From positions 1-32,260 of the forward strand of contig NZ_AUCA01000037.1 in assembly GCF_000429525.1 (NCBI RefSeq): DNA of 32,260 nucleotides, in the 5' to 3' direction. Under the pieces are notes generated by a model that was not told the DNA's origin, did not search any database, and worked only from the letters and a program-made list of their open reading frames with translations. The translations under genes and the position numbers were made by a program. Below, piece by piece: positions 2,760-19,356 of this stretch (position 1 is its first letter; each line of letters opens with the position of its first letter). This DNA is from Alicyclobacillus contaminans DSM 17975. Its GTDB lineage: Bacteria > Bacillota > Bacilli > Alicyclobacillales > Alicyclobacillaceae.

Positions 2760-3026
2760 GTGCCCTCCGCCCAGGCGGTCGGCTTGGCACTGTGCGTATT
2801 GCTCGGGGGCGTAGCCCTGGCTCAGTACACCACCCATGACCTACATACAGCACGAACGACAACCTACGTGGTGCAGCAGGGTGACAGTCTTTGGTCCATA
2901 GCCACAGCTGCGGATAAGCATCACGATCCGCGGGACGTGGTGGCTGAGATACAGAGCCTGAACGGGCTCACGAACACTGACATACAGCCGGGGCAGACCC
3001 TGGTGATTCCGATGGATGGGAGGTAA
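2760..3026 (+). CDS. Small membrane-anchored LysM protein, YneA-like
   Basis: 88 aa from GTG 2760, which has GGAGGG at 2749-2754; a longer version from ATG 2718, overlapping ssb, lacks a ribosome site. Residues about 5-22 form one hydrophobic segment (VGLALCVLLGGVALA). A short spacer leads to a LysM domain (about 38-85: YVVQQGDSLWSIA ... GQTLVIP). LysM binds peptidoglycan. One N-terminal membrane helix plus one LysM at about 90-105 aa is the architecture of YneA, the SOS-induced division inhibitor of Bacillus. Placement among early genes rather than in a lysis cassette fits delaying host division better than lysis. That role is inferred. Confidence 0.85.
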   Translation: MPSAQAVGLALCVLLGGVALAQYTTHDLHTARTTTYVVQQGDSLWSIATAADKHHDPRDVVAEIQSLNGLTNTDIQPGQTLVIPMDGR

Positions 3027-4221: not shown

Positions 4222-5503
4222 TCCAACGCAAGCAGAGGCAACGCTTTGCGCGACGCTCATCCAGCGCCCTGACCTACTCGACGAAGTCAATCTGAGCCAC
4301 GAGGATTTCCTGGATCCAGACCTCGGGCTGATATTCCGGACGGTGCAATGGCTTGCGGAGCGCGGCAAACCGGTCACCTCATTCGCTATCGTCGAAAAGT
4401 TGGCCAAGCGCGTAGATACGGACAAATTGGCTGACATCACGTCTGGAATCCTCGCCAAGCCTTGGGCTATTCAGGACACTACGAGGATTGTGAAAGATGC
4501 ATCTACTCGGCGTCGTCTGGTACAAACCGCTCACCGGATGATTGAGATGGCAGAGACAGCCGAACGGATTGACGACGATGCACTGTCGGAGATCGAAAAG
4601 TCCTTCGCTGAGGTGTCGTCCAGCGTAGAGGGTGAGACCGGCCCGGTTCATGTGTCGCAGATTGCAGATGAGTACATGACCATGCTGGAGGAACGGGTCA
4701 AAAACAAGGGCCAACTGCCGGGCGTGGACACAGGGTTCAAGCAACTAAACGTTTGGCTGCATGGATGGCGTCCGGGGGACCTGTTCGTGGTCGGCGCCCG
4801 GCCATCCATGGGAAAGACGGCGTTCGCTCTGCAGTCGGCTGCGGCCGGTGCACGTGATAGCTGCGTGGTGGTGTTCAGCATCGAAATGCTGCGGTACACG
4901 CTGATGGACCGGATGGTCTCCGCAGAGTCCATGATACCGATGTTCAACCTGATGAACGGGAACATTCAGGATGACAACTGGTACGGCATCACATCTGCGG
5001 TCAGCGAGATTGGTCAGCGGAACTTATTCATCGACGACAACCCGTACGCCACGGTCCCGTACATCCGGGCCAAGTTGCGACGGATCGCGCGGCAGAACCA
5101 AGGGATGAAGCTCGTTGCCTTCGTGGACTATCTGCAGATTGTGAAAGTTTCCAAGAAGGGGCGAAGTCGGGTTGAGGAGATCGGGCTCATCAGTACAGAG
5201 CTAAAGGCGCTGGCCAAAGAGTTGCAGTGTTCCATCGTCGCACTAGCACAGGTCAATCGCGAGGTAGAGAAACGGGCAGACAAGCGTCCAACGCTATCGG
5301 ACCTACGTGATTCTGGCCAAATCGAGCAGGATGCCGACGTGATCATGTTCCTCTACCGGGATGAGTACTACAACCCGGAGACGCCGACCAAAGGCGTGGT
5401 GGAAATCATCGTTGCGAAGAACCGAAATGGGCCGCAGGGAACGGCCAAAGTAGGGTTCGCCAAAGAGTTTCAGCGGTTCATCGATGTATCGGAGGAGGGC
5501 TGA
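4205..5503 (+). CDS. dnaB: Replicative DNA helicase, DnaB family
   Basis: 432 aa, hexameric 5'-3' replication helicase. The N-terminal helical domain (about 1-120) begins with a QAEATLCATLIQRPD segment. The RecA-like ATPase domain holds Walker A GARPSMGKTAFA (about residues 196-207), FSIEM, Walker B VAFVDYLQIV (about 303-312), and the DLRDSGQIEQDADVIMFLYR and AKNRNGPQG motifs typical of DnaB. AGGAGGT at 4196-4202 suits ATG 4205 or 4208. It overlaps the initiator gene by 17 bases, so the pair is co-translated. All core motifs are present, so it should be active. Confidence 0.96.
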   Translation: MMVRVDPTQAEATLCATLIQRPDLLDEVNLSHEDFLDPDLGLIFRTVQWLAERGKPVTSFAIVEKLAKRVDTDKLADITSGILAKPWAIQDTTRIVKDASTRRRLVQTAHRMIEMAETAERIDDDALSEIEKSFAEVSSSVEGETGPVHVSQIADEYMTMLEERVKNKGQLPGVDTGFKQLNVWLHGWRPGDLFVVGARPSMGKTAFALQSAAAGARDSCVVVFSIEMLRYTLMDRMVSAESMIPMFNLMNGNIQDDNWYGITSAVSEIGQRNLFIDDNPYATVPYIRAKLRRIARQNQGMKLVAFVDYLQIVKVSKKGRSRVEEIGLISTELKALAKELQCSIVALAQVNREVEKRADKRPTLSDLRDSGQIEQDADVIMFLYRDEYYNPETPTKGVVEIIVAKNRNGPQGTAKVGFAKEFQRFIDVSEEG

Positions 5504-5505
5504 AC

Positions 5506-5739
5506 ATGGACAAGCAGTTGGTCAATGACATCGCAAAAGAATGCGTCGCGCACGGCGGGAACATGGCGGCGAAGTTGCACAGAGCCCTGCAACTGCAGAT
5601 GGCCATGCGGCAGGAGGGCATCGACTTTCCGACGCTGGCGGATGCCTTCGCAATCCTGGCGAGTTGGGAAGGACACCGGGTGACTGTCGACTCTATGACA
5701 TGGGTACCGCCGCTGATGCAGGACGGTGAAACGACATGA
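5506..5739 (+). CDS. Unknown helical protein, 77 aa
   Basis: ATG 5506 follows the helicase stop by two bases, with GGAGGAGG at 5491-5498. The protein is mostly helical with a Met/Gln-rich stretch (ALQLQMAMRQEG) and ends near a Trp-Val-Pro-Pro segment. I do not recognise it. A second frame in the same stretch is a shadow. It is coupled by ATGA to the next small gene. Confidence 0.7.
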   Translation: MDKQLVNDIAKECVAHGGNMAAKLHRALQLQMAMRQEGIDFPTLADAFAILASWEGHRVTVDSMTWVPPLMQDGETT

Positions 5740-5942
5740 CAGACCTCGAAACGCAGGACATCTGCCGCGTCCAGATCCCGGCGGTGCCAACGGTAAGCAG
5801 TGTAGTGGCCACGCTGGAGAGCCTAGTCCGGCAGCTACAGCGCTACGACCACACCCGGCGGGTGACGAGGATACGGATGCACCCGGAGGATAGGAGCATC
5901 AGGATCACGCTGGCGCCGGTAAGGGAGGTGGACACGGAATGA
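5736..5942 (+). CDS. Unknown protein, 68 aa
   Basis: It overlaps both neighbours by ATGA. A strand-like N-terminus leads to a helix (VVATLESLVRQLQRY) and then a strand pair (RVTRIRMHPEDRSIRITLAPV). The layout resembles small phage alpha/beta proteins, but no motif identifies it. Confidence 0.7.
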   Translation: MTDLETQDICRVQIPAVPTVSSVVATLESLVRQLQRYDHTRRVTRIRMHPEDRSIRITLAPVREVDTE

Positions 5943-6184
5943 CACGAAGCATCCCAAAGTGGTTCGAAGAGTGGGCGGAGGACGCAGTGGAGCAGTGGAA
6001 GCACGACGGGCGGTGGTACATCATCCGTCACGCGGAAGGAACGAAGTTTGGATGGTGCCTTGACTTCGTGGATTTCGATGGCATGGGTGGTGGCGGAGCA
6101 CCGTTCGCCACGCGCGAGGAGTTGGATGAGTACGTGCGGAGATACCGGCTGCGCCCATATGAGCAGCTGACGCTGGGGATATGA
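5939..6184 (+). CDS. Unknown protein, 81 aa
   Basis: ATG 5939 overlaps the previous stop. An amphipathic Trp/Glu-rich N-terminus (WFEEWAEDAVEQWKHDGRWYIIRH) is followed by a GGGG loop (about residue 52) and a C-terminal helix EELDEYVRRYRL. The aromatic-rich start could mark a protein-protein contact or an anti-host product. No family is recognised. Confidence 0.7.
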   Translation: MTRSIPKWFEEWAEDAVEQWKHDGRWYIIRHAEGTKFGWCLDFVDFDGMGGGGAPFATREELDEYVRRYRLRPYEQLTLGI

Positions 6185-6196
6185 GGGGGATGCGAT

Positions 6197-6667
6197 GTGA
6201 CCTGGCAACTGACTCACAAAGGTAACCGGCAGGCTGTCCAACTTGCGGATCGGCACTACACTCGGCAGAAACCAGGAACATCGCAATTCTGCCGGCCCGG
6301 AAGAAATCTGGTGCTCCTAAGTCGAGACGAACGTGCACTGTGGGTTACGTGGTCCGGGATACGTGATGACGGGTATGACGCATGGGAGTGCACGCTGTTC
6401 CGGAACGAGGGCCACTACCTGAGCAGTCATCTGATAGTCCTGGCGCTAGGGATCACGCAACACCTGTGGGGGACGCCTCCGCCGGACGGGATCCTGACGT
6501 ACGTCGGCAAACACCTGCGCGGAGGATGTTTCTATGCGGCCGGGTTTCGGCGTATCGGGCAAAGCCAGGACGGAAAGCCCCTACTGCAATTGCCATCTGA
6601 TCGGATGCCGCCGCCATTGGAGGCGGCCGAAAGTGGGCTGTGGGCGCATGAGATACGAGTCGTGTGA
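6197..6667 (+). CDS. Conserved phage protein with HYTR / FRNE motifs, unknown role
   Basis: 156 aa from GTG 6197 behind GAGGGGG. It carries LADRHYTRQKPGTSQFCRPG near the N-terminus, a strand LVLLSRDERALWVTW, then YDAWECTLFRNE, LSSHLIVLAL and LTYVGKHLRGGCFYAAGFRRIGQS. From memory, a group of phage and actinobacterial proteins of this length shares the order HY(S/T)xR, GPGxxLxL, W-to-FRNE, and a final CFxxAGWRRCG-like strand. I believe this is that group. It is sometimes compared with acyltransferases, but no function is established here. The Cys and His residues are conserved-looking. It sits next to the DUF5131 gene. Confidence 0.7.
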   Translation: MTWQLTHKGNRQAVQLADRHYTRQKPGTSQFCRPGRNLVLLSRDERALWVTWSGIRDDGYDAWECTLFRNEGHYLSSHLIVLALGITQHLWGTPPPDGILTYVGKHLRGGCFYAAGFRRIGQSQDGKPLLQLPSDRMPPPLEAAESGLWAHEIRVV

Positions 6668-6683
6668 AAGGAGCGGTTGAGTG

Positions 6684-7559
6684 ATGGGTGATAGAAGCGC
6701 GATTGAGTGGACAGACGCCACATGGAACCCGGTTACAGGGTGCTCCAAAGTGAGGTTTGGATTGACTGAAAAGCCGTGGACAGCCCCGAACGCCGCAGTG
6801 AACGTAAAACTGCATCCGGAGCGATTGTATGAACCGTTGAAGTGGAAAAAGCCGCGGAGAGTGTTCGTCAACAGCATGAGTGATTTGTTCCATGAGCAGG
6901 TGCCGGATGAGTTCATCATCCAGGTGTGGGAAACGATGGCGGGTGCTCCGCATCACGTGTTTCAAATTCTCACGAAGCGCCCAGAGCGGATGATGAACTG
7001 GGTCAAGAAGTACGGAACGCACGTCATTACAGGAGAACCTGCACTGAAAAACGTCTGGCTCGGTGTCAGCGTCGAGAACCAGAAGGCCGCAGATGAACGG
7101 ATTCCGCTACTCCTGCAGACGCCAGCGGCGGTGAGGTTTCTGAGCTGCGAGCCGCTACTGGGTCCGGTGGATCTGTCTGCGTACAAGCCATTCGACGGCG
7201 AGTGCTACTGCCAAGACCGGCCGAATGGATGCAAGCCGCGCTTCGCAATTGGATGCCCGGAGACTGCGATTGACTGGGTCATAGTGGGCGGCGAGAGCGG
7301 CCCACATGCGCGTCCCATGCACCCGGACTGGGCGCGGAGCTTGAGGGACCAGTGCCAACAAGCCGGAGTCCCGTTCTTCTTCAAGCAGCACGGAGAATTC
7401 TCGAATCCCAGCGCCTCGGGTATCCATCTGAACGACGTTGGTGACAAACCGCTTTACCAATTCGATGACGGAATCTCAGTGTGGCGTGTGGGCAAGAAGA
7501 AAGCAGGCCGCATGCTCGATGGACGCACATGGGACGAATACCCGGAAAGGAGCGTGTGA
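6684..7559 (+). CDS. Gp37/Gp68-family protein (DUF5131) lacking the Cys motif
   Basis: 291 aa, ATG 6684, with AAGGAG at 6668-6673. Family hallmarks are clear: SAIEWTDATWNPVTGCSKV at residues 5-23, then PRRVFVNSMSDLFHEQVP, FQILTKRPERM, VWLGVSVENQKAADERIPLL, RFLSCEPLLGPVDL, WVIVGGESGPHARPMHPDW and a PFFFKQHGE end. Members I remember have a radical-SAM-like GCxxCYAE stretch straight after TGC(T/S)KV. Here KV runs directly into RFGLTEKPWT, which in relatives comes after that stretch. About 20 residues therefore seem to have been lost in frame. The function of the family is not firmly known; this copy may be inactive or altered. Confidence 0.9.
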   Translation: MGDRSAIEWTDATWNPVTGCSKVRFGLTEKPWTAPNAAVNVKLHPERLYEPLKWKKPRRVFVNSMSDLFHEQVPDEFIIQVWETMAGAPHHVFQILTKRPERMMNWVKKYGTHVITGEPALKNVWLGVSVENQKAADERIPLLLQTPAAVRFLSCEPLLGPVDLSAYKPFDGECYCQDRPNGCKPRFAIGCPETAIDWVIVGGESGPHARPMHPDWARSLRDQCQQAGVPFFFKQHGEFSNPSASGIHLNDVGDKPLYQFDDGISVWRVGKKKAGRMLDGRTWDEYPERSV

Positions 7560-13152: not shown

Positions 13153-13199
13153 CGCCGGGTTGTCTCGGCGGCTGCCTCGACCGTGGGGTCGAGCAGTCA
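13027..13199 (+). other. Dense hairpin block, possible remnant of a mobile-element end
   Basis: Successive stems are CTCGC-TAG-GCGAG (13030-13042), CACTG-GCAT-CAGTG (13054-13067), CAGCG-TTCAC-CGCTG (13113-13127) and CTCGACC-GTGG-GGTCGAG (13176-13193). The last is extended by CTG/CAG with one bulged C. It ends three bases before TCAA (13197-13200), the sequence at which the intact IS in this window ends. The helicase scrap begins right after. It is possibly the structured right end of a second IS200/IS605-type element that has lost its genes. Confidence 0.5.
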
Positions 13200-13351
13200 A
13201 GCGGTTGTCTGGTTCGATACGATATGGAGCCTGGAAGAGGATGAGCAGGCGAATGCGAGGGTGCACCGTCAGGGACAGACTAGACGCATCGTGGTGATAC
13301 GACTAGTGGCTGAAGGCACGATGGATGAGGAAGCTGTCGCGGCCATGGAAC

Positions 13352-13460
13352 TTGACACTCCGCACGGCTAAAGCCGTGGGATTCTTGGGAGCACTCCCGC
13401 AACCGAGAGTTCTGCCTTGCGGCACCAAGCTATCCCCGTGTGTCCCACGGTTCAGTCCGC
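13352..13460 (-). ncRNA. IS right end with likely omega/reRNA region
   Basis: Between the tnpB stop and the IS boundary lies a structured stretch including the perfect hairpin CACGGCT-AA-AGCCGTG (13363-13378). In IS605-family elements this end is transcribed with tnpB as a guide RNA whose last bases read the flanking DNA. Here the guide would begin GTTCCATGGCCGC (13351 leftward). The assignment is based on position and known biology. Confidence 0.6.
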
Positions 13461-14579
13461 TTAAGCGGACAAATTCAAAAGTCGCAATCCTTCGTGCAGG
13501 ATATTCCTCGCGGCGTTGACATCACGATCGTGGGCCACACCGCACTTCGGGCACGTCCAGTGTCGAACAGACAGGTCTTTCGTCTCGGCGTTTCGGTGCC
13601 CGCAGCAGGAGCAAAGTTGGCTAGAGGGGAAGACAGGGGAAACGGTCGCTACCTGTCTCCCGTACCAGTTCGCTTTGTATTCCAACTGCCGCCGAAATTC
13701 CGACCAGCTGGCATCGGCAATGCTCTTGGACAGTTTGTGATTTTGTTGCATGTTCCGAACACGCAAGTCCTCCAGGCAGATCGCTTGGTTCTCGCGAATC
13801 AGCCTGGTGGACAACTTGTGAAGGAAGTCCAGTCTCGCGTTTCGAACCTTCTCATGAAGCCGGGCCACTTTCAACCGGGCTTTCTCCCGGTTCTTCCCGC
13901 CCAGTTTCCTGCGGGAAAGAATCCGTTGCCAGCGTTTCAGTTTCTTTTCGTGTTTTCGTAGGTGCCGGGGATTCGGGATCGTTTCCCCAGTGCTGAGCAC
14001 GGCGAAGTCCTTTAACCCCAGATCGATGCCAACGGCGTTGAAGTTGGGCTTCAAAGGCTGAATCTCCGTGTCCACCAGGACCGATACAAAGAACTTTCCC
14101 GAAGGAGCCAGACGAACCGTGCCAGAAAGGATACGCCCCTGCACTTCGCGGGATTTGGCGAACTTCACCCATCCTACCTTCGGCAGCCGAATCCGGTTCC
14201 CCTCGATGCGGATAGTCGCTTTGTCATCCTCTTTGCCGTTGCGTTTGGACGTGTAGGATTGCTTCGGATGCTTCTTGCTCTTGAAGCGTGGGTAGCTTTT
14301 CTTCTCACGGAAGAAGCGCTGAAAGGCGTGATCTAAGTCTTCGACTGCCCTTTGCAGTGCAGTCGAATCAACTTCCTGAAGCCAAGGGTGCTGCTGTTTT
14401 AACGCTGGCAACTCTTTCATGCAAGCATATTGGTTCAAAGTTGTTACGTCTCGCTCGTAGGATTCTTTCCGAAGCGCGAGAAAGTGATTGTACACAAATC
14501 GGCAACATCCGATGGTTCGCCGGATTATCTGCTCCTGCTCTTTTGTTGGATAGAGGCGGAAGGAAAAAGCTTTGTGCAT
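13461..14579 (-). CDS. tnpB: TnpB RNA-guided nuclease / accessory of IS605
   Basis: 372 aa from ATG at 14579 ([15 protein letters not shown]); an upstream extension to 14675 has no ribosome support. N-terminal OrfB helix-turn-helix, then RuvC motifs: [13 protein letters not shown] (Asp), [11 protein letters not shown] (Glu) and [11 protein letters not shown] (Asp). Between them is a four-cysteine zinc finger (CSCCGHRN ... CPKCG). All catalytic residues appear intact. TnpB uses the right-end RNA to cut the empty target site and thus retain the element. Five bases separate it from tnpA. Confidence 0.95.
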
Positions 14580-14584
14580 CGTGT

Positions 14585-14983
14585 TCACCCACGCTTCTTC
14601 TGGGCTTCGACATACCGGCGGATCGTATCGCTGGACACGTTTCCTGCCGTACTCACAAAGAAGGAACGTGTCCATAGACTAGGGAGGTGTCTAAGATGCG
14701 CAAACTCTTGACGAAGCCGCCGTGAAGTCGTTCCCTTGATGGTTGCCATGATATTTGATGGCGAATCTGTTGGGAGACAATTGAGAAACAGATGAACATG
14801 ATCAGGCATGACTTCCATCACAAGAATCATCCAATCGTTTTGGGCGCAAATCTCGCTTACCAGTTCTTTGAACCGTGATTCCACTTGACCAACGAGAACT
14901 TTCCGCCGGTATCGAGGGCAGAAAACAAAATGATAGTTGATGAGCGATACGGTTGTTTTCGTATGACGATATTCTTGTCCCAT
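14585..14983 (-). CDS. tnpA: TnpA, Y1 HUH transposase
   Basis: 132 aa. [17 protein letters not shown] opens the IS200-type fold. The HUH pair is in MPDHVHLFL (about 60) and the catalytic tyrosine is in [11 protein letters not shown] near the C-terminus. It cuts and rejoins single-stranded element ends. [14 protein letters not shown] is the usual middle signature. The protein looks complete, so the element may still be mobile. Confidence 0.95.
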
Positions 14984-15142: not shown

Positions 15143-15607
15143 ATGAGCCTGACACCGGAAGAACGCAAGGCGCTGTATAAGATTTTCGCGAACTATCGGG
15201 CCGCCAAGGAGGCCATCGCCAACCGGCGTGTGCCTGTGAAGCGTGGATACGCGTCAGCCATTCACCCGGACCTTATCCGCGCATCGCGGGTTCACCCGTC
15301 AACACCGAAATCGGTAACTGGGTTTTGCATCACGCCTGACTTTAGCGAGGCCAGTTTCCGGCGCTTCATCTGGCGGATTGATTGGCACGTCAGGCGATTG
15401 CGGCCGTACCGGCGAGCCCTTATCCGGAAAAGGTTTTTGGGCCATGAGCCGCTACCAACAGATGCAGTTGTCTATGATGAATTGCGTGAGGAAGGGTGGT
15501 ACGTCAGCAAGAGTTTCTACAACGTCGAAAAAAGAGAGGGATTAGAAGAGTTGTTTAGGTCGCTGAAACTCAGTAGTGGCGCGGAAAACGAGAGAAAAAG
15601 TGTGTAA
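15143..15607 (+). CDS. ArpU/RinA-like late regulator
   Basis: 154 aa, ATG 15143 overlapping the helicase stop. A basic N-terminal half is followed by RLRPYRRALIRKRFLGHEPLP, TDAVVYDELREEGWYVSKSFYNVEKREGLEELF, a sigma-region-4-like HTH as in ArpU-type packaging/lysis activators: the patterns Y..AL, D..VY..L, S..FY...K..A/G are all present. In Bacillota phages such a gene lies immediately before the late promoter and terminase genes, as here. A palindrome 45 bases beyond its stop is a plausible target. Only the class is inferred; no paralogue was compared. Confidence 0.75.
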   Translation: MSLTPEERKALYKIFANYRAAKEAIANRRVPVKRGYASAIHPDLIRASRVHPSTPKSVTGFCITPDFSEASFRRFIWRIDWHVRRLRPYRRALIRKRFLGHEPLPTDAVVYDELREEGWYVSKSFYNVEKREGLEELFRSLKLSSGAENERKSV

Positions 15608-15669
15608 AAAATCATGTAAAAAATCGGCCTTGGGTCTAGTGATTTTCCGTGCAAAACATGATATGTTTT
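15603..15669 (+). promoter_or_regulatory. Direct repeats and a 17-bp palindrome in the late-control region
   Basis: TGTAAAAAATC occurs at 15603-15613 and again at 15615-15625, one base apart. AAAACATGATATGTTTT (15653-15669) is a perfect 7-3-7 palindrome. No good -35/-10 pair is seen, which fits an activator-dependent late promoter driven by the neighbouring ArpU-like protein. The link is inferred. Confidence 0.6.
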
Positions 15670-15692
15670 CTGCGGAGAAAGTATGTCCAGAA

Positions 15693-15857
15693 GGTACCCG
15701 GATCGGGTGCCTTATTCATTGCTTATGACCACGGGCATCAGCTACGGCTGGTGCTCTTTGTATGACACATGCCCTGCAAGGCGGCGACGTTCAGCCGAAC
15801 ACCTCCCGCCGAACCGGAGCGGTGCTGCAGGGCTTCCTCCGGTCATGACATGAGGTG
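15693..15857 (+). ncRNA. Riboswitch-like structured leader with anti-Shine-Dalgarno
   Basis: First stem: GGTACCCG (15693-15700) / CGGGTGCC (15704-15711). Three-way junction without linkers: GGGCAT (15733-15738) / ATGCCC (15769-15774), enclosing CAGC-TACG-GCTG (15739-15750) and a GTGcTC...GACAC arm (15751-15768). Next: GGCGG/CCGCC (15780-15784 / 15806-15810) with GTTC-AGCC-GAAC inside. CCCTGCA (15772-15778) can instead pair with TGCAGGG (15826-15832), competing with ATGCCC. CCGGAG/CTCCGG closes at 15814-15842. CACCTC (15800-15805) is an exact complement of the ribosome site GAGGTG (15852-15857). I saw no gene here. Confidence 0.65.
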
Positions 15858-15862
15858 ATTGG

Positions 15863-16180
15863 ATGCGTTTCTGTTGGGTCTGCAATGAACGTGTTCCGTC
15901 CGGCACGAGGATGTTGGGCTGCGAACTATGCGAAGGGTGGGCGGTGACAGTGGGTGAACACGCGGCGCAGGAAACGTTGCGAAAGCGAGAGATCGCGAAA
16001 CTGAAAACACGCTACGCCAAGGCTGTTACGGCGGCGCAACGGGCAGCTGATGCGCGCAGGGCACTCCCGCCCGGTAGCTCACACTCACGAGTCACAACAG
16101 CCAATGCAAGGTGGGCCGCTGCCGCTGAGTATCGGGATATGCTGGCCGCCCAACTCAGAGAACTGGGTGAGGACGTGTGA
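15863..16180 (+). CDS. Cys-motif protein with coiled coil, 105 aa
   Basis: ATG 15863, six bases after GAGGTG, which may be masked by the leader. The first 22 residues carry CWVC and CELC (FCWVCNERVPSGTRMLGCELCEGW), a zinc-knuckle pair. Residues about 30-65 are a basic helix (RKREIAKLKTRYAKAVTAAQRA), and the rest is Ala-rich helix. It could bind nucleic acid. The function is unknown. Its stop overlaps the next GTG by four bases. Confidence 0.75.
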   Translation: MRFCWVCNERVPSGTRMLGCELCEGWAVTVGEHAAQETLRKREIAKLKTRYAKAVTAAQRAADARRALPPGSSHSRVTTANARWAAAAEYRDMLAAQLRELGEDV

Positions 16181-16341
16181 AGAAGAAACGGCGCTTGAAT
16201 CAGGGAGAAGGCGCGACAGTCACCATCGCGCGCCGTGAGAGGTTGACGTTTCGCGACATCGAACGCCTGATGCAGTCGGCGAACACATATGAGCGCCGCG
16301 GAGGGAAGTTGAAACAGCGCAGGCGTGCGCGGGACATCTAA
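16177..16341 (+). CDS. Small basic protein, 54 aa
   Basis: GTG 16177 overlaps the previous stop (GTGA) and ends at TAA 16339-16341. It is strongly basic at both ends (MKKKRRLN; KLKQRRRARDI), with a middle helix LTFRDIERLMQSANTYERR. Probably DNA- or RNA-binding. The gene is short but its coupling is clean. Confidence 0.65.
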   Translation: MKKKRRLNQGEGATVTIARRERLTFRDIERLMQSANTYERRGGKLKQRRRARDI

Positions 16342-17122: not shown

Positions 17123-17161
17123 AAAAACCTTCCGCGCGGAGAATGAGGAAGCGGGAGGGTG

Positions 17162-17551
17162 ATGGAATTGTATCGTGATGTTCTGGTCAGAAGAGTTAGG
17201 GAAAAATACTCAAGCGATGTCTATAATCTTGAATGCCTTAACAAGGCGATGAGTTTCATCTCAAATTATTTTCGGGACATATGCGATGAGATTCGGGACG
17301 TAATGGTCGTAGTTCCTGATGTTAGATTGCGTGATTCGAAGGAAGAAATAGAATTCGCAATCGGTAAATCGTCGTTGAAGTTCACGATGGGAAAACATCA
17401 TGTTGGTGTCTTTTTTGGGAAAGAGGAGATCGATAAGATTGTCCCCGCAACAAATCACACATGCATTACTTATAGCAACGGTGAGGAAGTAGACATGAAG
17501 GCAATGGATAGATATTTAATGCTCGCCTTCAAAGAAGAATTGGAACTGTAG
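17162..17551 (+). CDS. Unknown protein, 129 aa, A/T-rich gene
   Basis: ATG 17162 (or GTG 17159) after GGGAGGG. Helical N-terminus (YRDVLVRRVREKYSSDVYNLECLNKAMSFISNYF), then a strand-rich part (VMVVVPDVRLRDSKEEIEFAIG ... LKFTMGKHHVGVFFG). A terminator follows directly, so it may be a self-contained cargo gene. I do not recognise a family. Codon use looks more A/T-ending than in the structural genes. Confidence 0.75.
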   Translation: MELYRDVLVRRVREKYSSDVYNLECLNKAMSFISNYFRDICDEIRDVMVVVPDVRLRDSKEEIEFAIGKSSLKFTMGKHHVGVFFGKEEIDKIVPATNHTCITYSNGEEVDMKAMDRYLMLAFKEELEL

Positions 17552-17566
17552 AAAATATCGCGCTCT

Positions 17567-17590
17567 CCCGCTTCGGCGGGTTTTTCTTTT
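17567..17590 (+). terminator. Rho-independent terminator
   Basis: CCCGC-TTCG-GCGGG (17567-17580) followed by TTTTTCTTTT. The core CCCGCTTCGGCGGGTTTTT recurs at 18112-18129. Confidence 0.93.
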
Positions 17591-17686: not shown

Positions 17687-18100
17687 GTGAACGACGAAGA
17701 ACGCGCCCAAGACGAACACCATGTTTACGGGGTTATTTATGAGAGTGAAGCATCCGACGCGGATACTCATTCTCATGAAATTTTCCTGATTACGTGGGAC
17801 GGAAGGGTACTTCATACCCATGGTTTTTCAGGTATTACTTCCTTCGATGTTGGTCATCGACACCGTTACGTAGGAGTCACCGGACCAGCTCCAAGTGGTG
17901 TCCCACACACCCATACCTACTCCACTGAAACAACATTCAATGACGGACATAGGCACTTCATCAGTGGACGGACAGGTCCTGCAATTCAACTTCCAAGCGG
18001 TGGTCATTACCATTTCTTTGAAGGTGTCACCACGGTAAATGGGAGTATCCCGCATACCCACACCTACAGCGGAAGAACAGGAAACGAAATCCCAGTATAA
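17687..18100 (+). CDS. ymaF: YmaF-family histidine-rich protein
   Basis: 137 aa from GTG 17687, preceded by GAGGAGGGTG. Repeated GHRHRYVGVTGPA / PHTHTYSTETTFNDGHRHF / GGHYHFFEGVTT / PHTHTYSGRTG units are the hallmark of YmaF. Histidines alternate with Gly/Thr, so metal binding is likely. YmaF is common in Bacillota spore-former genomes, its role unclear. Finding it between a late regulator and the terminase with its own terminator suggests a lysogenic-cargo (moron) gene. A promoter is not certain in 17591-17686. Confidence 0.9.
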   Translation: MNDEERAQDEHHVYGVIYESEASDADTHSHEIFLITWDGRVLHTHGFSGITSFDVGHRHRYVGVTGPAPSGVPHTHTYSTETTFNDGHRHFISGRTGPAIQLPSGGHYHFFEGVTTVNGSIPHTHTYSGRTGNEIPV

Positions 18101-18111
18101 ATCGATGCAAT

Positions 18112-18134
18112 CCCGCTTCGGCGGGTTTTTATTT
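18112..18134 (+). terminator. Rho-independent terminator after ymaF
   Basis: CCCGC-TTCG-GCGGG (18112-18125) plus TTTTTATTTT, a near-copy of the one at 17567. Confidence 0.92.
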
Positions 18135-18855: not shown

Positions 18856-19356
18856 ATGGGCAGGCGAGCAATCCCGGCGCATCTGCAGATACTGACAGGC
18901 AACAAGAATCGACTGACGAAGGCCGAACTTGCACAGCGCGTGGAGGCAGAAAAGAAACTCAAGCCGCGCGCCGACAAGATAAAACCTCCGGCCTGGTTGG
19001 ACTCGGTGGCGAAGCGAGAGTTCAAACGTCTTGCGGCTGAACTGCAGGAGCTTGACCTGCTCACCAATGTCGATATAAACGCCCTTGCCGCGTACTGCGA
19101 TGCATACTCGGACTATGTTGAGTGTACGAAGATCATCCGCGAGGAAGGTCTGCTCGTTGAGTACACGAACAAGGCCGCAGAGACGAACAAGGTGCCGCAT
19201 CCGCTGTTGACCAAGAAAAAACAACTGCATGATCAAATGCGTTCCCTGGCGTTGGAGTTTGGTCTGACACCAAGCGCACGCGCAAAGCTGGCGATGCCCA
19301 AGCGAGAAGAGAAGCAGCCCACGGAAGAGGAAAAACTCTTCGGCGATATGCTGTGA
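18856..19356 (+). CDS. terS: Terminase small subunit, P27 family
   Basis: 166 aa, GGAGGTG ahead of ATG 18856. MGRRAIPAHLQILTGNKNR, then PPAWLDSVAKREFKRLAAEL, LTNVDINALAAYCDAYSDYV and LTKKKQLHDQMRSLALEFGLTPSARAKL are all P27-family hallmarks. It recognises the packaging site and guides TerL. The GTGA overlap couples it to the large subunit. Confidence 0.95.
   Translation: MGRRAIPAHLQILTGNKNRLTKAELAQRVEAEKKLKPRADKIKPPAWLDSVAKREFKRLAAELQELDLLTNVDINALAAYCDAYSDYVECTKIIREEGLLVEYTNKAAETNKVPHPLLTKKKQLHDQMRSLALEFGLTPSARAKLAMPKREEKQPTEEEKLFGDML

Follow-up and report, generated by a model that had tools for sequence, protein, structure and literature searches.

Few phage translational operators that contain a pseudoknot are known to us. 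The operator of T4 gene 32 is a pseudoknot bound by a zinc protein and placed 67 nt ahead of the start codon, according to excerpts of PMC3014915. Structured RNAs at the start of a transcription unit are also described for processive antitermination, putRNA being a structured leader of ~70 nt (excerpts of PMC9378689), while the conAn system of Gram-positive plasmids has a protein paired with an RNA at the operon start (excerpts of PMC8955417).

Gene order around the leader

The window that we analyzed is the whole of contig NZ_AUCA01000037.1 (32,260 nt), part of the 3.27 Mb genome of Alicyclobacillus contaminans DSM 17975. Its terminase is nearest to those of the Geobacillus phages PK5.1 and E2, followed by that of phi105, whose TerL is 59% identical to the TerL of the window. 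The genes are ordered as regulator ORF, hairpin B, element, CxxC gene, small genes, HNH, TerS, and TerL, the HNH and TerS genes having been named by eye, from matches to other prophages, and from the phi105 gene order. The earlier note had placed the leader in a phage late region, which is roughly right for the window, although more precisely the element lies between the regulator ORF and the HNH-TerS-TerL module. The features are the following.

15143-15607, + strand: ORF that precedes the leader and probably encodes a phage transcription regulator (phrog_248 "transcriptional activator", E 6.6e-6)
15733-15756, + strand: terminator-like hairpin B, immediately 5' of the leader; a shared module and not part of the element
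15771-15843, + strand: conserved 73-nt fold, P1 enclosing the hairpins P2 and P3, plus a pseudoknot
15771-15778, + strand: P1 5' strand GCCCUGCA, partner 15826-15833
15782-15797, + strand: P2 hairpin CGGC/GCCG, 15782-15785 with 15794-15797
15798-15805, + strand: J2/3 joining strand AACACCUC, which includes CACCTC; not kept as an anti-Shine-Dalgarno in L018 or L240
15806-15822, + strand: P3 hairpin CCGC/GCGG with loop CGAACCGGA, 15806-15809 with 15819-15822
15813-15818, + strand: pseudoknot loop strand ACCGGA, in the P3 loop, partner 15838-15843
15826-15833, + strand: P1 3' strand UGCAGGGC, partner 15771-15778
15838-15843, + strand: pseudoknot 3' strand UCCGGU, just 3' of P1
15852-15857, + strand: Shine-Dalgarno GAGGTG, 8 nt after the pseudoknot
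15863-16180, + strand: CxxC...CxxC protein of 105 aa, its N-terminal part in the MKPCWVC family
16177-16341, + strand: 54-aa ORF with a basic RELER/RRGGKLKQRRR domain (match 16228-16335, E 5.1e-11; ends set by eye)
17567-17580, + strand: terminator-like site between the element and the terminase genes
18112-18125, + strand: terminator-like site with the same stem-loop as 17567-17580

The terminator-like sites at 17567 and 18112 lie among the small genes between CxxC and HNH, and TerS starts at 18856, 3 kb from the element. The two sites (17567-17580 and 18112-18125) are copies of the stem-loop CCCGCTTCGGCGGG plus a T-run, which closes two moron-like single-gene cassettes, 17159-17551 and the YmaF-domain gene at 17687-18100, and which is also found in L064 and L349. 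On the other side of the leader, the − strand carries a pair of IS200/IS605-type genes, TnpA (Y1 transposase) and TnpB (13461-14983), between the regulator ORF and a short fragment at 13183-13371 that was judged helicase-like by eye. A palindrome at 15653-15669, AAAACATGATATGTTTT, which is also present in prophage C42, overlaps a 12-bp hairpin at 15660-15687, and the region 15653-15687 could be an operator or promoter region.

The CxxC gene of the window is also present in the IMG/VR record 2524023143_000005. The family to which it belongs has about 73 aa and a basic C-terminal domain, and across seven members C4, C7, C20, and C23 do not vary; the best Pfam and NCBIfam matches of these seven members are weak (E 0.011 and 0.0029, respectively). 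In relatives the CxxC part and the RELER domain form one protein, while they are separate ORFs in the window and in C52, the start of the 54-aa ORF in the window overlapping the CxxC stop (GTGA). From the motif, the CxxC protein is predicted to bind zinc and presumably RNA. Searches of 50,697 phage records with the CxxC and regulator proteins at E 0.01 gave zero matches. One viral contig (L267, IMG/VR 3300027863_000043) has a protein with the RELER domain only, preceded in the 300 nt upstream of position 3001 by what is, judged by eye, a long leader of another kind that contains a number of inverted repeats.

Relatives of the element and their common fold

Counting the window, homologues of the element occupy six loci, distributed over three genomes of a single family: the window, L003 (C52), and L004 (C24) in the same genome, L018 and L240 in G028, and L026 in G025. 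The DNA search of the own genome gave three further places, C52, C24, and C42 (L002). C52 and C24 have both the leader and the CxxC gene in common with the window, the gene being broken in its second half, while C42 resembles the window only upstream, as far as midway through hairpin B, and diverges from there on. A search of 61 genomes, the own one included, added L018 (G028:C31), and a pattern search of 41 genomes of the family, again including the own one, added L026 (G025:C1). L240 (G028:C52) was reached through a search with the CxxC protein and not through an RNA search; the letters of its leader look unrelated at first sight, yet the fold is the same, and its element sequence is also present in a 51-kb IMG/VR record (L269/L287). 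The CxxC gene directly follows the element in five of the six copies, L026 being the one with no CxxC gene downstream.

The surroundings of these copies are informative. The L240 prophage has a related regulator, a terminator-like hairpin, the element, CxxC, and TerL in this order, and in G025 the helicase and regulator remnants, the element, and the TerL remnants follow one another on one strand. The regulator ORF of the window (15143-15607) has a 94% identical copy in the C42 prophage, and this place of C42 is also matched, on the same strand and in the same frame, by the G028 prophage's regulator (35% over 71 aa). The C42 prophage has the regulator and hairpin B in common with the window and keeps HNH, TerS, and TerL without any match to the element. 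Since C42 has the late module without the element, the latter travels with the CxxC gene and not with that module. No terminase was found in the stretches examined of C52, C24, and G028:C31, whose phage setting is therefore putative. Near the G025 copy, positions 4700-6930 (L060, G025:C1) hold small genes identified by eye in the ORF list as YjcZ-like and spore-coat-like and flanked by phage helicase/regulator remnants and terminase remnants; because they lie between phage remnants, such sporulation-type genes may be prophage cargo. Similar small genes adjoin the element in L061 (G028:C31), a 5.3-kb contig without a terminase.

Filtered covariance searches, run on 398 genomes of the class and 398 of the phylum (sets that overlap in part), returned only the known copies above 30 bits. 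As the filtered searches also missed L240 in G028, this absence of further copies is not strict, and distant copies may have been overlooked. Weaker covariance hits were judged to be noise, those in G022 and G078 resembling a transporter-like motif by eye. The pattern scans of viral contigs gave 6, 43, 27, 34, and 69 stretches, the six being read by eye. A search with R2 of 100 loci (the new loci of the 43-, 27-, and 34-stretch scans plus L020) gave five hits up to E 1, the best of which, L141 (20.8 bits) and L161 (19.7 bits), have letters unlike the family. BLASTN with the leader gave no match in phage records and, among plasmids, short matches in 23 records that cover at most 14% of the query. 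In the same genus, L034 (G001:C11, 10505-10615) has hairpin B and an adjoining gene that is not CxxC. It appears to be a decayed relative of the element; as the 3' strand of its P1 resisted alignment, neither model includes it. L036 and L043 were dropped, as they have hairpin B and some letters in common with the family while the element is not alignable. Rfam 15 at the gathering score has 0 matches in the window, L240, L003, L004, L018, and L026, so the earlier note was right to recognize no known class; at relaxed thresholds, the matches in 15500-16000 are far below the cut-off. No description of the leader RNA was found in the open-licence literature.

Comparison of the copies establishes the P1-P2-P3 fold, as a pattern of predicted pairs, and its place upstream of the CxxC gene. 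In the hand alignment of the six sequences, 121 of 130 cells pair and both sides have changed at 8 of the 22 pairs, and 0 of 5000 column shuffles reach the paired-cell or the double-change count; these counts come from only six copies, three of which are close relatives, and L026 is retained in them despite several broken pairs. Between the window and L240 alone, all 44 cells pair, with 7 double changes. P1 has two double changes in L240 and two pairs broken in L026. P2, whose strand in L004 was read by hand, has double changes at two pairs across the copies and zero broken pairs. In P3 there are double changes at three pairs; L003 and L004 each have an A.C mismatch there, and L026 has lost two of the four pairs. 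The pseudoknot pairs fully (6/6) in the window, L003, and L240, at 5/6 in L004, and partially in L018 and L026, a mismatch being present in each of these last three. The one-sided changes are few and support the + strand as the probable orientation of the element, all three being C-G to U-G on that strand, two of them in L026.

The tool alignment A4, with five copies and without L240, has a gap at the P2 strand of L004 and a different P3 register. It pairs 94.4% of its cells, compared to 23-48% in slid versions, and 3 of its pairs are double-changed, values that 4 of 500 shuffles also attain; the measure of further pair types is matched by 500 of 500 shuffles. Two checks are independent of the hand alignment. 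In one of them, a model built from the other five copies, run with filters off, ranks the L240 leader first in its 3.1-kb locus (20.8 bits, E 1.2e-4 in 17 kb), with P1 aligned as proposed and the inside unaligned, so that the inner helices of L240 were aligned by hand; the score of L141, a viral contig unrelated by letters, is also 20.8 bits with R2 (E 0.0057 in 889 kb). In the other, a pattern lacking the 3' strand of the pseudoknot was run over viral contigs and 398 genomes, resulting in 80 matches in the scanned loci. The full TCCGGT stands behind P1 in 9 of these 80, and the nine are records of three loci only, namely, the window, L003, and L240. L004 and six unrelated stretches have 5/6 of it, and the remaining matches fewer. 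In the scan of 69 viral stretches, the 6/6 strand occurs only in the window's own record and in that of the G028 prophage.

Folding was evaluated as well. The region 15650-15880 of the window folds better than 200 of 200 dinucleotide shuffles (z −3.29), and for L240 alone 9 of 200 shuffles are as good (z −1.81). Of 10000 shuffles, 88 reach the fold score of the window, 60 that of L003, 458 that of L004, and 31 that of L240, and 24 of 990 overlapping window tiles, taken on both strands, hold some such fold; by itself, the fold is thus not rare in GC-rich DNA. L018 does not fit the strict fold descriptor. The predicted probability of P1 is about 0.97 or more in four of five leaders, the fifth being L004, where folding prefers the anti-Shine-Dalgarno pairing over P1 (P1 0.006). 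It is on the comparison of copies, taken together with position, that the case for the element rests.

CxxC genes also precede HNH-TerS-TerL in G062 and G063, with other leaders. None of the eight CxxC leaders examined in G062-G064 aligns with the element; the strict descriptor fits one of them (L232, with other letters) and the loose descriptor five. Three G064 loci (L232, L233, and L235) have, by eye, another type of leader about 120 nt upstream of the CxxC start, with a hairpin CRCCAG-ACTCGTTT-CTGGYG whose loop TCGTT is complementary to an AACGA shortly before the ribosome site and whose stem has one compensatory A-U/G-C change between copies. This hairpin is possibly an independent pseudoknot leader for the CxxC gene family.

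Proposed translational control and competing explanations

The earlier note had read the leader as a translational riboswitch, with a three-way junction closed by GGGCAT and ATGCCC, two mutually exclusive helices that share 15772-15774, and an exact anti-Shine-Dalgarno. The motifs lie exactly where it put them (GGGCAT at 15733-15738, ATGCCC at 15769-15774, CACCTC at 15800-15805, and GAGGTG at 15852-15857), and its broader view of a structured leader by the ribosome site is upheld, covarying relatives having been found. The specific parts fared differently. The junction helix pairs at 6/6 only in the window and is intact in none of the four relatives compared, L003, L004, L018, and L026 having 4, 3, 4, and 4 of the 6 pairs with longest runs of 4, 2, 4, and 3; L240 lacks the upstream hairpin and was not part of this comparison. 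GGGCAT belongs to hairpin B, which is found without the element in C42/L002 and elsewhere, its pattern occurring at 1-5 places per genome in five genomes. Some of these hairpin B sites adjoin YjcZ-like genes, by eye. The two helices sharing 15772-15774 are not a conserved pair, and the junction that is kept is P1-P2-P3. As for the anti-Shine-Dalgarno, the exact match is kept in three of five leaders, all of them from the own genome: the run complementary to GAGGTG is 6 in the window, L003, and L004 and 4 in L018 and L240. In the folding of these five leaders (L026 was left out), the pairing of CACCTC with GAGGTG has a probability of 0.031 in the window, 0.001 in L003, and 0 in L018 and L240, and it dominates only in L004 (0.994). 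By chance, CACCTC occurs in 1180 of 20000 shuffled spans (5.9%). No conserved expression platform that sequesters the Shine-Dalgarno, as in a translational riboswitch, was found among the leaders, and we consider a switch built on these motifs very unlikely. Attenuation through a competition of the junction helix with hairpin B was also considered and was rejected, the helix not being conserved and hairpin B presumably being complete before 15769 is transcribed.

Our preferred reading, a tentative one to which we give slightly less than even odds, is that 15771-15843 is a cis-acting RNA of a temperate phage that controls the translation of the CxxC gene, perhaps in an autoregulatory manner. 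It is the most economical one: the element tracks the CxxC gene and not the late module, only 8 nt separate its end from the ribosome site, and compensatory change keeps the pseudoknot there. A conserved pseudoknot is indeed found just upstream of the ribosome site, as in translational operators of the pseudoknot type, with about 20 nt from its end to the CxxC start codon. In the proposed mechanism, P1 would close a junction with P2 and P3, and the P3 loop would pair with the strand 3' of P1. The pseudoknot strand and the initiation region could then not be used in all ways at once, and something would stabilize one state of the leader. In the window, the free pseudoknot strand 15838-15846 is predicted to be able to pair with 15855-15863 across the ribosome site, and such a competing hairpin appears in the predicted folds of two of five leaders (window and L018); the hairpin and the pseudoknot would be a real either-or. 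The leading candidate for the effector is the encoded zinc-ribbon-like protein with its basic RELER domain, resulting in autogenous control; alternatively, the 30S subunit or another factor could act. T4 gene 32 provides the analogy for autogenous binding by this product as the leading mechanism; the translational action of the leader, its ligand, and the zinc are all inferred.

The place of the element raises the question of antitermination, in which the RNA alone (put-like) or together with the CxxC/RELER protein (conAn-like) would give read-through before the terminase genes. The element lies upstream of late-side genes in the window and in the G028 prophage, T-run terminator-like sites occur between it and the terminase in the window (two) and downstream of it in C52, and putRNA and conAn, as introduced above, offer precedents for a structured leader and for a protein-RNA pair, respectively. 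However, C42 has HNH, TerS, and TerL but no element, the CxxC genes upstream of HNH-TerS-TerL in G062 and G063 have different leaders, and the counts of terminator-like sites are not clearly above chance (window 7 vs 4.2, sd 2.2; C52 4 vs 2.6, sd 1.5; G028 7 vs 3.2, sd 1.8). Such sites are found both upstream and downstream of the element, and the terminator-like hairpin immediately upstream is where antitermination could be of no help. The fold is also unlike put as described, which has two stem-loops, and the word pseudoknot is absent from the text of PMC9378689. We therefore find antitermination unlikely. A wider version of it is speculative and hardly more probable, namely, that in prophages of spore-formers the leader RNA bound by the CxxC/RELER protein forms a two-part late-control module, conAn-like but unrelated, in which the complex would either license RNA polymerase past the pre-terminase terminators or throttle its own synthesis, timing late expression. 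It is improbable, too, that the element merely is a structured mRNA 5' end that protects or stabilizes the transcript or marks a processing site, with no regulated switching. The strong predicted P1 in four of five leaders would suit such a role, but a pseudoknot a few nucleotides from the ribosome site would exceed what a stabilizing hairpin needs.

The compact junction with a pseudoknot near the ribosome site and the absence of an Rfam match would also be expected of a new class of small-molecule riboswitch acting on the CxxC gene. This we regard as quite unlikely, considering that the element is present only in three genomes of one family, that R2 found none further above 30 bits in the 398 class and 398 phylum genomes (filtered searches, which missed L240), that the joining strands and loops vary among the window, L018, and L240 (of six copies only), and that the CxxC gene is not metabolic-looking. 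The inverted repeats upstream of the terminase module could in principle be a phage cos/packaging site or a DNA operator with dyad symmetry. In phi105, however, cos occupies bases 1-7, about 50 nt before the TerS start at 60, while here TerS lies 3 kb from the element, and the changes keep pairing rather than sequence, making this explanation highly improbable. A leader peptide through P1-P3 is unlikely as well: the frame of the window is open in five of six copies up to the ribosome-site region, but there is an early stop in L026 and a frame shift in L018, and in L004 and L240 the open stretch upstream of P1 has no ATG, GTG, or TTG.

Returning to translational control of the CxxC gene, the leader and the CxxC/RELER protein would constitute a defined RNA-protein pair, and the leader a handle on the timing of gene expression in little-studied prophages. 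As a second independent covarying candidate from a prophage, it would suggest that the pseudoknot-operator device is more general.

Comparison with described systems

With pLS20 conAn, compared by description, the locus has in common a protein plus an RNA at the start of a terminator-containing operon (excerpts of PMC8955417). HK022 putRNA is likewise a structured RNA of ~70 nt located close to the beginning of a phage transcription unit; put, however, consists of two stem-loops downstream of early promoters (excerpts of PMC9378689), whereas the element has a junction and a pseudoknot adjoining the ribosome site, with a terminator-like hairpin upstream. The rpsO (S15) operator also has a pseudoknot in the translational operator of the controlled gene (excerpts of PMC3014915), which is another gene, and its topology may differ; for the present element, autogenous control is a proposal. 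As in gene 32 of T4, T2, and RB69, a phage leader pseudoknot stands upstream of the ribosome site of a gene for a zinc protein, here a putative one (excerpts of PMC3014915). According to the same excerpts, the T4 pseudoknot lies 67 nt before the start codon, with an A+U-rich stretch after it, whereas the present element combines P1-P2-P3 with a pseudoknot from loop to 3' flank, is GC-rich, and precedes the gene of an unrelated protein.
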